A DNA stretch of 64,000 nt from Desulfofustis sp. PB-SRB1 (GTDB taxonomy: Bacteria; Desulfobacterota; Desulfobulbia; Desulfobulbales; Desulfocapsaceae): contig JAEQMT010000038.1 in the NCBI GenBank assembly GCA_016722945.1, positions 496,001 through 560,000 on the forward strand, in the 5' to 3' direction. A program made the position numbers and the translations under genes. Shown here one piece after another: positions 46,222 to 49,166 of this stretch (position 1 is the stretch's first letter; every line of letters begins with the position of its first letter). The notes under the pieces are model-generated. The model did not search any database. It had not been told where the DNA came from and was given only the letters and a program-made list of their open reading frames with translations.

Positions 46222-46668
46222 ATGAAAATTATCGATAAATCGGACGACGCATTTCTCAAGCTGCTGAAAAAGATTATCCATTTCTGCCTGAAAGTACTGG
46301 GACTGTTGATGATCCTGGTCATCATCTTCGGGGTAATCGATGTTGGCTGGACCCTGTATCAGCGGCTGATATCGCCGCCCGGCTTCATCCTGACGATCGG
46401 TGACATGCTGGCAACCTTTGGCGCGTTTATGGTGGTGCTCATCGCCATCGAGATATTTCAGAATATCATCATGTATCTGCGCGATGACGTTATTCATGTG
46501 AAAATCGTCCTGGCCACCGCCCTTATGGCAATCGCCCGAAAGGTAATCATTCTCGACTACGATGAGCTTGCCCCGCTCTACATTTTTGCTACCGGCGCGG
46601 TACTGGTGGCCACCGGAATAACCTATTACCTGGTCTTTAAGTTGCCGGAGAAAATCCATGAAGAGTAG
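46222..46668 (+). CDS. PsiE-family (phosphate-starvation-inducible) membrane protein
   Basis: 148 residues from the ATG at 46222 (MKIIDKSDDAFLKLLKKIIH); the frame extends 12 codons upstream into repeat R1 and that part is not family-like. Four hydrophobic segments are present. The stretch FGAFMVVLIAIEIFQNIIMY with LRDDVIHVKIVLATALMAIA and RKVIILDYDE is the conserved core of the PsiE family. Its function is unknown; the name derives from E. coli phosphate control, and no Pho box was found. The next gene is convergent. Confidence 0.85.
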   Translation: MKIIDKSDDAFLKLLKKIIHFCLKVLGLLMILVIIFGVIDVGWTLYQRLISPPGFILTIGDMLATFGAFMVVLIAIEIFQNIIMYLRDDVIHVKIVLATALMAIARKVIILDYDELAPLYIFATGAVLVATGITYYLVFKLPEKIHEE

Positions 46669-46672
46669 AGAC

Positions 46673-47083
46673 TCAGGCAAGATATACTCGGGCTATGTCA
46701 AGACCGCTCACCGCACTCCACAAGATGGTACGAAACCAGTTTGCCGCCACCAATCGCCTGATTACCGCTATATCGTAGCCCCGGCTCAGCCGGGCGTGCA
46801 GGGGAACGAAAAGAAAAAAGGTCAGACCCCAGGCAATGGCCACGAGGCTCGCTTGGACAAGTAAAAGTGCGGAAAAATTGGTAACCAGGCCATAGCCGAC
46901 CAGCAGCGCTTGCCCACTCATGAGCGGGATGACCAGCAGACTGATCCGGCTGGTATACCAGCGATGAATGGCACAAAAAGATGGCAGCGGCCAATGCACC
47001 ATGGCTGGATAGATAATGAGCTGCACCAGCCAGATGAGCACCACCAGACCGCCGTTCAGGCAGACCAGCAGACAGTCGCTCAT
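46673..47083 (-). CDS. conserved four-helix membrane protein
   Basis: 136 residues with four hydrophobic segments (about 5-28, 48-67, 70-93 and 112-130). The pattern WLVQLIIYPAM in the first helix and VPLHARLSRGYDIAVIRRLV with ANWFRTILW near the end looks like a conserved uncharacterised bacterial family that is distantly like DUF1772 proteins. No function is known to me. Its start overlaps the bactofilin-domain gene by four bases, so the two are cotranscribed. Confidence 0.7.
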   Translation of the reverse strand: MSDCLLVCLNGGLVVLIWLVQLIIYPAMVHWPLPSFCAIHRWYTSRISLLVIPLMSGQALLVGYGLVTNFSALLLVQASLVAIAWGLTFFLFVPLHARLSRGYDIAVIRRLVAANWFRTILWSAVSGLDIARVYLA

Positions 47084-47994
47084 GGAACGTCCGCCGGCAG
47101 TTCAATGAGGCAATCCGGCTCGTCCATCAAGGCGAGGCCCCCTCTTGCTGAAAAAAGCTCTTTGAGTTCCCTGTTGCCGAAAATAACGGCGTGTACCGAG
47201 CAGGTGTCGGTATGCATGGTGTTCAGGTAGCGGATAAACCCTTCCAGGGCAGCGGGGAAGAGCTCATCAGACCAGTGGACGCAGACCAGTATTGCTGATT
47301 TCCGGCTTTGCCCGACACTACCTACAATGGCCTCGGCCAGCACCTTCTTGTCGCCATCGGCATCCACCGGCACCGCTAGTTCGGCGGCCACCATCCCCAG
47401 CATCTCCAGAACCGAGCGCCCAGGCTTGGCAAGCAGCGCACAGGCATGGCTGCCGCGCAGTCGCTCGGCAATGATTTCGCCGATGATATGCCGTCTATCA
47501 AGTTCCGGGGCAACTACCACGATAAGCCGGCAGCCGGCGTGAATCGCCTGTTCAAGGCTCTCCACGTAATGGGTAAGAGCAGGTTTTGACTGTTGTCTTT
47601 CATCATACACCGCCTCTGTTTGGGGTGGCACACCGGCGGCCGTCTGGGCGCTACTATTTGCCGAAAGAACCGGGAGGCATGACGGCAGCAGGTGGTTGAT
47701 CACCGCCTTGGCGGGTTGGCTGGTTTCAAACAGACCATGCAGACGCGAACCGGGACGCAGGGCAAGATGCTGGGTACACACGGCGCCGCCCACCGTACCG
47801 CTTATATCAAGCGCGTTGCTCGTTATTGTTCCCTCCATGGTGCCGCTTCGGGACACTTCGATGTCATCACCCACCACGATACCGCGCATTATCCCATGAA
47901 CGACGAGCGGATCGGGGCAATGAATCTCCCCGTCAATCTTCATGCCCGCCCCCACGACGGCGCCACGGTGATTACTCCCCACTGCCTTTTTCAT
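47080..47994 (-). CDS. bactofilin-domain protein fused to an AAA-like domain without P-loop
   Basis: 304 residues. Residues 10-90 are a bactofilin (polymer-forming) domain: GAGMKIDGEIHCPDPLVVHG, then IVVGDDIEVSRSGTMEGTIT and repeats of a beta-helix type ending in LRPGSRLHGLFE. A Ser/Ala/Pro-rich linker runs to about 135. The C-terminal half (SLEQAIHAGCRLIVVVAPEL, LLAKPGRSVLEMLGMVAAEL and SAILVCVHWSDELFPAALEG) follows the strand-helix plan of ExeA/GspA-type AAA proteins, but the GxxGxGKT loop is replaced by APELDRRH. It may be a scaffold with an inactive NTPase module. It overlaps the four-helix membrane gene. Confidence 0.7.
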   Translation of the reverse strand: MKKAVGSNHRGAVVGAGMKIDGEIHCPDPLVVHGIMRGIVVGDDIEVSRSGTMEGTITSNALDISGTVGGAVCTQHLALRPGSRLHGLFETSQPAKAVINHLLPSCLPVLSANSSAQTAAGVPPQTEAVYDERQQSKPALTHYVESLEQAIHAGCRLIVVVAPELDRRHIIGEIIAERLRGSHACALLAKPGRSVLEMLGMVAAELAVPVDADGDKKVLAEAIVGSVGQSRKSAILVCVHWSDELFPAALEGFIRYLNTMHTDTCSVHAVIFGNRELKELFSARGGLALMDEPDCLIELPADVP

Positions 47995-48155
47995 TACTAC
48001 TGAATCATGGTTGTGAGCAGATACGAGGTAAAAAGAAAATCTTCATGAACTACCGGATGGTATTATAGTAGCATAAAGTTGATTGCCCTTGGCACCTTGT
48101 GTCAAGCACCTAGTTACCACATTCAAAATAGGTTGTCTTTTCTGAAAAGAGTACC

Positions 48156-49166
48156 ATGTACCTCGCCACCAGCGGAAGAGGAGCGGATCGGCGCTTCGAG
48201 ATCAGGCAAAGCCGCCCGGCGGCGGAGCATACAGAACCCGGCTACCGGGTCATTTTTGAGCTTGGCTCCCGACCCGATAAGTACATTATCTGCCCTTCCG
48301 AAGACATCTGTTACTTTGATGAGAGGCTGGAAGACTGCGTCAGTCAATACGCCGACCGCGACGCCAGCCTCATCCTCGAAGAGCTTCTCTACGATTTTCT
48401 GCCCGAATCCGAGAAACATCGGCTGAGCTATTTCAGCCAGCGCGGCAAGGCCTCCATCACCCCATTATCGGCCCGTGATACATCGCGGCTGAAAACCGAT
48501 ATCCATCTTTTCGACCAACGACGCCTCTACTACCTTCGCTATGGTGCGGTGGATCAGAGCAGGATCTTTCGCCTCAATCCCAAGCTGTATCGGCCGCTTC
48601 TGGATAAATGCCGGGATGAGCGTGAATTTTATTTCATGAATATGGAAAAGGTGCTGCAGGAACATGAAATGCGCACCTATGTGTTTGCCATCTTCGATCT
48701 ACAGCGCCACTTCAGCCAGTCATTTTCGGCCACCATGCCCGAGGCCTTGAACCAGATCGATATCGCCGATTACTTTCTCGAAGATGTCTGCACCCTCAAC
48801 ACCGATGACGACTTTTGGGCGGATCTGGGAATGAGTGACAGCCTGCACGAGCATCTGATTCGCTACGTGGTAATGTTTTTCGACTATGGTTATGGCCGCC
48901 GCTCACTCTTTGATGATTTTCTGCGAGAATTCATGGGAAGACATCGCAACTTCAGCTGGCCTGAGAAAAAACCAAGTGTGTCCACCAGCCAGGCGGCGGA
49001 AATCTTCAATGAAGAGTGGCAGACCCTGCAAAAGATGAGCAAAAAAGAGCTCGGACGGCTCTATCGCCAACGGGCGAAGGAGCTACATCCCGACAGCGGC
49101 GGTGATCATGAGCAATTTATTCAGCTCAAGGCGGCATATGGTTCGCTGCTTCTGAGAAAGCGGTAA
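48156..49166 (+). CDS. J-domain protein with a novel N-terminal region
   Basis: 336 residues. The C-terminal 60 residues are a J domain: LGRLYRQRAKELHPDSGGDH with the HPD tripeptide, followed by EQFIQLKAAYGSLL, so it can be expected to stimulate a DnaK-type ATPase. The first 270 residues are soluble, rich in charged and aromatic residues, and match no family I recognise. No DnaK is adjacent. A 59-codon coiled-coil gene follows after 46 bp. Confidence 0.75.
   Translation: MYLATSGRGADRRFEIRQSRPAAEHTEPGYRVIFELGSRPDKYIICPSEDICYFDERLEDCVSQYADRDASLILEELLYDFLPESEKHRLSYFSQRGKASITPLSARDTSRLKTDIHLFDQRRLYYLRYGAVDQSRIFRLNPKLYRPLLDKCRDEREFYFMNMEKVLQEHEMRTYVFAIFDLQRHFSQSFSATMPEALNQIDIADYFLEDVCTLNTDDDFWADLGMSDSLHEHLIRYVVMFFDYGYGRRSLFDDFLREFMGRHRNFSWPEKKPSVSTSQAAEIFNEEWQTLQKMSKKELGRLYRQRAKELHPDSGGDHEQFIQLKAAYGSLLLRKR

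Follow-up and report, generated by a model that had tools for sequence, protein, structure and literature searches.

Bactofilins (PF04519; BacA, BacM and the Thermus bactofilin) possess a beta-helix domain with a hydrophobic residue at the polymer-interface position. In one study, their assembly is described as nucleotide-independent, the F130R substitution in BacA disrupts the polymer interface, and polymerisation promotes client binding by BacA (PMC12448750). The closest concept of an ATPase linked to bactofilins comes from Myxococcus, where PadC recruits ParA to them (PMC12704722). ExeA of type II secretion is reported to bind peptidoglycan and to work with ExeB in secretin assembly (PMC4098917). 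A fusion of a bactofilin with an AAA domain was not found in the bactofilin literature searched, a scope without preprints and most subscription journals.

We analysed a stretch of 64,000 nucleotides from Desulfofustis sp. PB-SRB1 (the window), in which one gene encodes a protein with the beta-helix domain and the hydrophobic interface residue of the bactofilins. It differs from them in an additional C-terminal AAA-like domain and in being without an N-terminus of the MFSKKKK type. The gene, the elements of its product (the window fusion) and two neighbours are as follows.

47080..47994, minus strand: window fusion (bactofilin + pseudo-AAA fusion protein), ORF of 304 aa, from Pfam, profile and single-query searches
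47692..47961, minus strand: bactofilin beta-helix domain, aa 12-101, from Pfam, the AlphaFold2 model, the 6ria match and alignments
47089..47607, minus strand: AAA+-like domain without lid, aa 130-302, from the model, fold matches and profiles, with the absence of the lid from alignments
47488..47511, minus strand: APELDRRH, aa 162-169, a degenerate Walker A at the site of GxxGxGK[ST] in 16 relatives
47266..47292, minus strand: ILVCVHWSD, aa 235-243, a degenerate Walker B with H240 and W241 in place of the two acids
47224..47259, minus strand: retained helix FPAALEGFIRYL, aa 246-257, alike in P-loop and P-loop-less members
47098..47121, minus strand: C-terminal motif EPDCLIEL, aa 292-299, with the Cys in 19/20 fusions and absent only from a frame-disrupted one
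46673..47083, minus strand: hydrophobic membrane ORF, 136 aa, ATGA overlap with the window fusion, without Pfam family
48156..49166, plus strand: divergent J-domain-like protein with HPD, its DnaJ match (E 1e-4) not reaching the Pfam cut-off

Domain composition of the window fusion

Residues 13-91 of the window fusion matched Pfam Bactofilin with an E-value of 4.1e-11, above the cut-off. This was the sole Pfam domain; SPOR was not detected, and the C-terminal half gave no Pfam match at E<=1, AAA_22 included. The C-terminal half was nevertheless recognised by a profile constructed from P-loop-bearing relatives only (E 5.6e-12; best of 1000 shuffles, 0.41) and by a profile of three standalone ExeA-type proteins (E 9.4e-12; best of 1000 shuffles, 0.098). 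The ExeA-type profile gave an E-value of only 0.0079 with L004, one of three other fusions lacking the P-loop. These three (L003, L004 and L005) showed weak AAA_22 matches below the cut-off (3.6e-4, 2.3e-5 and 1.3e-3), starting after model positions 19 to 36, the region of the P-loop. When three P-loop relatives were tested, both Bactofilin (4.6e-16 to 1.8e-14) and AAA_22 (3e-15 to 2e-12) were above the cut-off in all of them.

The AlphaFold2 model of the window fusion (pLDDT 75.6, pTM 0.59) consisted of strands at residues 12-91 and an alpha/beta domain at about 130-300. It matched the Thermus bactofilin 6ria with a Z-score of 15.0 (rmsd 1.5, 88 residues). The top fold match was chain C of the Drosophila ORC, 7jk2_C (Z 15.9, rmsd 2.7, 164 residues), which we take to be Orc3, a degenerate AAA+ subunit; this chain belongs to a eukaryotic DNA-bound complex, and the likeness observed is one of fold. 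Further AAA+ matches were MuB (8xvc_A, Z 15.3), TnsC (7plh_A, Z 14.9) and Cdc6 (1fnn_A, Z 14.0), and Foldseek alone gave seven matches at E<=0.001, the best being 4.6e-5. The model of the P-loop relative L080 (pLDDT 79.7) matched 1fnn_A with a Z-score of 19.8 over 244 residues. The window model leans on the P-loop relatives, because the other 12 rows of its 13-row alignment all carry P-loops; the profile and shuffle test is independent of them.

The original prediction, a bactofilin joined to an ExeA-like AAA domain without P-loop, was thus borne out by the sequence, the predicted structure and the relatives that carry a P-loop. Structure prediction had been named as the check on which an AAA-like C-terminal half would stand or fall, and the model matched AAA+ folds at Z 14-16. 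The profile searches and the model together confirmed the predicted composition of the window fusion, a bactofilin domain followed by an AAA+-like domain that is of ExeA/AAA_22 type but lacks Walker A.

In the bactofilin half, residue 130 of chain 2n3d corresponded to profile position 100, where all 20 fusions identified in this study have Leu, Ile or Val. Ile99 of the window fusion aligns with Phe130 of BacA at the polymer interface, an alignment that assumes native residue numbering in chain 2n3d. Polymerisation of the window fusion could be weakened, because the last rung of its bactofilin domain has three residues fewer than that of the other 19 fusions. The model confidence for this rung was low (pLDDT 63 then 37), and it was just as low in a P-loop relative (68 then 35). 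The N-terminus of the window fusion, MKKAVGSNHR, does not contain a membrane-targeting peptide resembling MFSKKKK. According to the BacA study, such a motif is not universal: the commonest motif of Thermodesulfobacteriota differs and may not bind membranes, and a subset of the bactofilins of this phylum has MTS-like sequences (PMC12448750). One further bactofilin is encoded in the window's genome.

Distribution of the fusion and loss of the nucleotide site

With the window fusion as the sole query, matches spanning both halves, with E-values of 2.8e-21 to 4.0e-11, came from five of 57 other related genomes, and two of these five relatives (L006 and L007) retained complete Walker A and Walker B motifs. 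A search for the same architecture had been proposed together with the original prediction, and a six-sequence profile located the fusion in 20 of 93 genomes from the bacterial family to which the window belongs, with the window's genome among the 20. The window fusion was among the six sequences, and the E-values of this profile for the window carry no evidential weight. No match across both halves was found in the 164 other genomes of the order (up to 8 candidates scored per genome) or in the further genomes of a 395-genome draw from the phylum (up to 5 candidates per genome); the class comprises the same 257 genomes as the order.

Outside the phylum, the architecture search covered a pattern scan of genome_contigs, plasmids and viral contigs. 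The scan of genome_contigs (84,980 species) detected 12 fusion loci, all with an intact P-loop. They were labelled Desulforhopalus (two loci), which is placed in Desulfocapsaceae, Desulfobulbaceae (six) and, for the rest, higher groups; several are the same contigs as in the surveyed genomes, and the counts are not independent. Among viral contigs, 53 stretches fitted a pattern and none was confirmed as a relative of the fusion; 35 plasmid records matched, none of which covered 80% of the query. Judged by these sequence searches, the window fusion is the branch without a nucleotide site of a small bactofilin-ATPase family, found among the searches made in one bacterial family only. Separately, a bactofilin match within a 488-aa open frame was noted in genome G045 (contig C38:5573-5893), which is possibly another bactofilin fusion.

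The Walker A motif GxxGxGK[ST] was intact in 16 of the 20 fusions and lost in four, namely the window fusion (genus g1), L003 and L004 (g6) and L005 (g17). All four carry substitutions at each of the three loop glycines and at the Ser/Thr, and the Lys was changed to Arg in three and to Cys in one. The Walker B pair was DD or DE in 15 of the 16 P-loop members and DA in L046; the corresponding residues were HW in the window fusion, EN in L003, DN in L004 and TE in L005, so that both acids were lost in the window fusion only and one was kept in each of the others. The PWSxR box preceding the AAA domain was missing from all four P-loop-less fusions; among the 16 P-loop members, 15 have it and L046 has PCSGR instead. 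The alignment also showed the C-terminal lid to be missing from all four, which end within about 10 residues of the PDC motif; the window fusion, without lid, ends nine residues past Cys295.

The four P-loop-less fusions formed a single clade with support of 99/95, and of 100/99 on the AAA part alone. One P-loop fusion, L045 of genome G014, has a frame disrupted near its end, after the PATMEG helix, which reflects an assembly error or recent decay; it was included in the fusion tree and dropped from the AAA-domain tree and the P-loop profile. The data support a later loss of the phosphate-binding loop, the lid and the PWSxR box in one clade, comprising the window fusion and three others, with the rest of the fold kept. 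The C-terminal half had been expected to bind a partner rather than nucleotide. Of this claim, the absence of the phosphate-binding loop and the lid supports the nucleotide part only.

Origin of the AAA half

In the tree of AAA domains, the fusions grouped with five larger ATPases (about 600-760 aa) of the same bacteria with support of 100/99. We call these larger proteins DamX-like, presuming a likeness to E. coli DamX. They are the nearest AAA sequence relatives of the fusions, but they keep Walker A, have no bactofilin and carry a membrane segment, which was read by eye. All three tested contained AAA_22, and Pfam SPOR was found in one of them (L141, 3.1e-4, just above the cut-off). The fusions' own branch within this tree had support of 92/75 only.

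DamX-like ATPases were detected at E<=7.4e-40 in 18 of the 20 genomes with a fusion; the other two, G077 and G092 (85% and 84% complete), gave only weaker matches. This co-occurrence is weak evidence, because DamX-like ATPases also occur without the fusion, as with L142 of G032, a genome without fusion. The window's genome encodes a DamX-like ATPase with intact Walker A, on contig C39.

The window fusion and ExeA/GspA of type II secretion have in common a domain of the AAA_22 class, in line with the match of the ExeA-type profile, but the GspA-type proteins lay on a separate branch of the tree. The window genome's GspA adjoins a GspB-like ORF on the separate contig C6 (both names being our presumption), while no adjacent GspB/ExeB gene was present among the neighbours of the window fusion. 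The insertion-sequence (IS) ATPase of the genome was likewise placed apart from the group of fusions and DamX-like proteins. Derivation of the AAA half from GspA or from the IS ATPase was thus unsupported by the AAA-domain tree. The data support the joining, in this bacterial family, of a bactofilin to an ExeA-class AAA+ domain closest to the DamX-like membrane ATPases.

When 150 of 270 candidates in the window's genome were scored, at least 27 proved to be AAA_22 ORFs of 273-275 aa, all with almost the same score. One copy, in L125 (56-2175), overlaps by four bases a 439-aa ORF, presumably of the integrase-like kind. These high-copy ORFs look as if they belong to an insertion element whose helper ATPase is ExeA-like.

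Candidate roles of the window fusion

A scaffold role is our best guess for the window fusion from its sequence and predicted structure, and we assign a probability of roughly 0.5 to its being a pseudo-ATPase scaffold. The bactofilin half would form nucleotide-independent filaments, along which the AAA-like half would be displayed as a fixed docking surface. The docking partner would probably be a component of envelope assembly. A first candidate is the P-loop-bearing DamX-like ATPase of the same genome, which the dead domain might join as a non-catalytic subunit; the fusion would then have exchanged a membrane anchor for a cytoskeletal one.

More tentatively, the whole family may form a bactofilin cytoskeleton into which an ATP switch is built. 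Assembly or client loading in the P-loop clade would then be ATP-dependent, and in the window's clade the switch would be locked, giving a constant scaffold or a non-catalytic DamX-like subunit.

The genes around the fusion bear on a rather unlikely role, in which it gathers membrane or envelope-lipid proteins encoded nearby. The gene directly upstream of the fusion belongs to the CDP-alcohol phosphatidyltransferase family in all six g15 loci and in two g14 loci, and encodes a heptosyltransferase in both g6 loci (Pfam was tested on one of each enzyme family). In the window, the membrane ORF overlaps the fusion. The neighbour varies by genus, however, and in 9 of the 20 loci neither upstream enzyme nor the membrane ORF is beside the fusion; moreover, three genomes that lack the fusion (L100, L101 and L103) have the phosphatidyltransferase gene in this neighbourhood as well. 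The membrane ORF had been described as a four-helix protein coupled to the fusion by overlap. The ATGA overlap is indeed present, but hydropathy gave three clear membrane segments, with a fourth below threshold, and the overlap is not conserved. Matches to this ORF were found in 18 of the 93 family genomes including the window's, only one of which (G089) otherwise has a fusion, on a separate contig; in this sole other genome with both, the two are unlinked, and the ORF was rejected as a conserved partner. Two homologues tested gave no Pfam match at E<=1.

The remaining neighbours differed between clades, and none was common to all fusion loci. A J-domain-like gene was near the fusion in 9 of 19 loci, with one more in G086; its matches in 51 of 93 family genomes, many without fusion, led us to reject it as an exclusive partner. 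In 13 of 19 loci, the surrounding sequence retrieved also included a gene that we take from its sequence to be gcvT-like. Neighbours were picked as the longest ORFs, and overlapping ORFs displaced the L070 and L074 fusions; the J-domain gene of L070 was missed in this way and found separately. A scan of 46600-48250 for promoters and terminators found 1 and 1, compared with 0.8 and 1.7 expected. A PsiE-family membrane protein (46222-46668, Pfam 2.9e-34) is encoded on the opposite strand, next to the fusion and the membrane ORF that overlaps it.

A tether to DNA or the nucleoid is distinctly unlikely. According to this idea, the domain keeps a DNA-binding role like that of ORC, MuB or TnsC and links DNA to the bactofilin polymer, somewhat like PadC. 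The best fold matches are indeed ORC, MuB, TnsC and Cdc6 chains, and the recruitment of ParA to the bactofilin cytoskeleton by PadC offers a precedent (PMC12704722). A common fold does not establish function, however, and the nearest sequence relatives are ATPases of the membrane type. MuB and TnsC bind DNA as ATP-loaded filaments, which the window domain cannot form in their manner.

We regard it as improbable that the AAA-like half is a functionless relic carried by a working bactofilin. In favour of decay, Walker A, the PWSxR box and the lid were lost together, the window fusion and L005 are on long branches in the fusion tree, and genus g12, close to the window by its J-domain protein, is without any fusion in five genomes. 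Against this, the frames are open in four copies from three genera, and constraint by codon position was detected in the AAA-like half of the two closest copies. Between L003 and L004, codon positions 1, 2 and 3 of this part matched at 0.54, 0.71 and 0.38 (156 codons), and the excess of position 2 over position 3 was equalled in 0 of 10000 permutations. The comparison indicates that the AAA-like domain of this closest P-loop-less pair is under purifying selection. The window fusion shares 22-25% identity with the other P-loop-less fusions, at which third positions are near saturation; matches at position 2 still outnumbered those at position 3 in each half. Conservation in the three pairs that include the window fusion was somewhat higher for the AAA-like part than for the bactofilin part (0.28/0.26/0.29 vs 0.25/0.22/0.20), and in the three pairs without it the bactofilin half was the more conserved (0.49/0.41, 0.33/0.32 and 0.28/0.27). 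That the window fusion still binds nucleotide at a non-canonical site is very improbable: three of the four P-loop-less members have Arg in place of the Walker A Lys and one Walker B acid is kept in three (none in the window fusion), but all four lack the lid and have other residues at the three loop glycines and the Ser/Thr.

The pseudo-ATPase scaffold thus remains our preferred reading of the window fusion. If the family as a whole did carry a built-in ATP switch, its P-loop clade would represent a nucleotide-regulated bactofilin. The fusions with intact motifs and their sister clade without a nucleotide site are well suited to a comparison that asks whether nucleotide can control a filament scaffold and what use remains for a dead ATPase domain.
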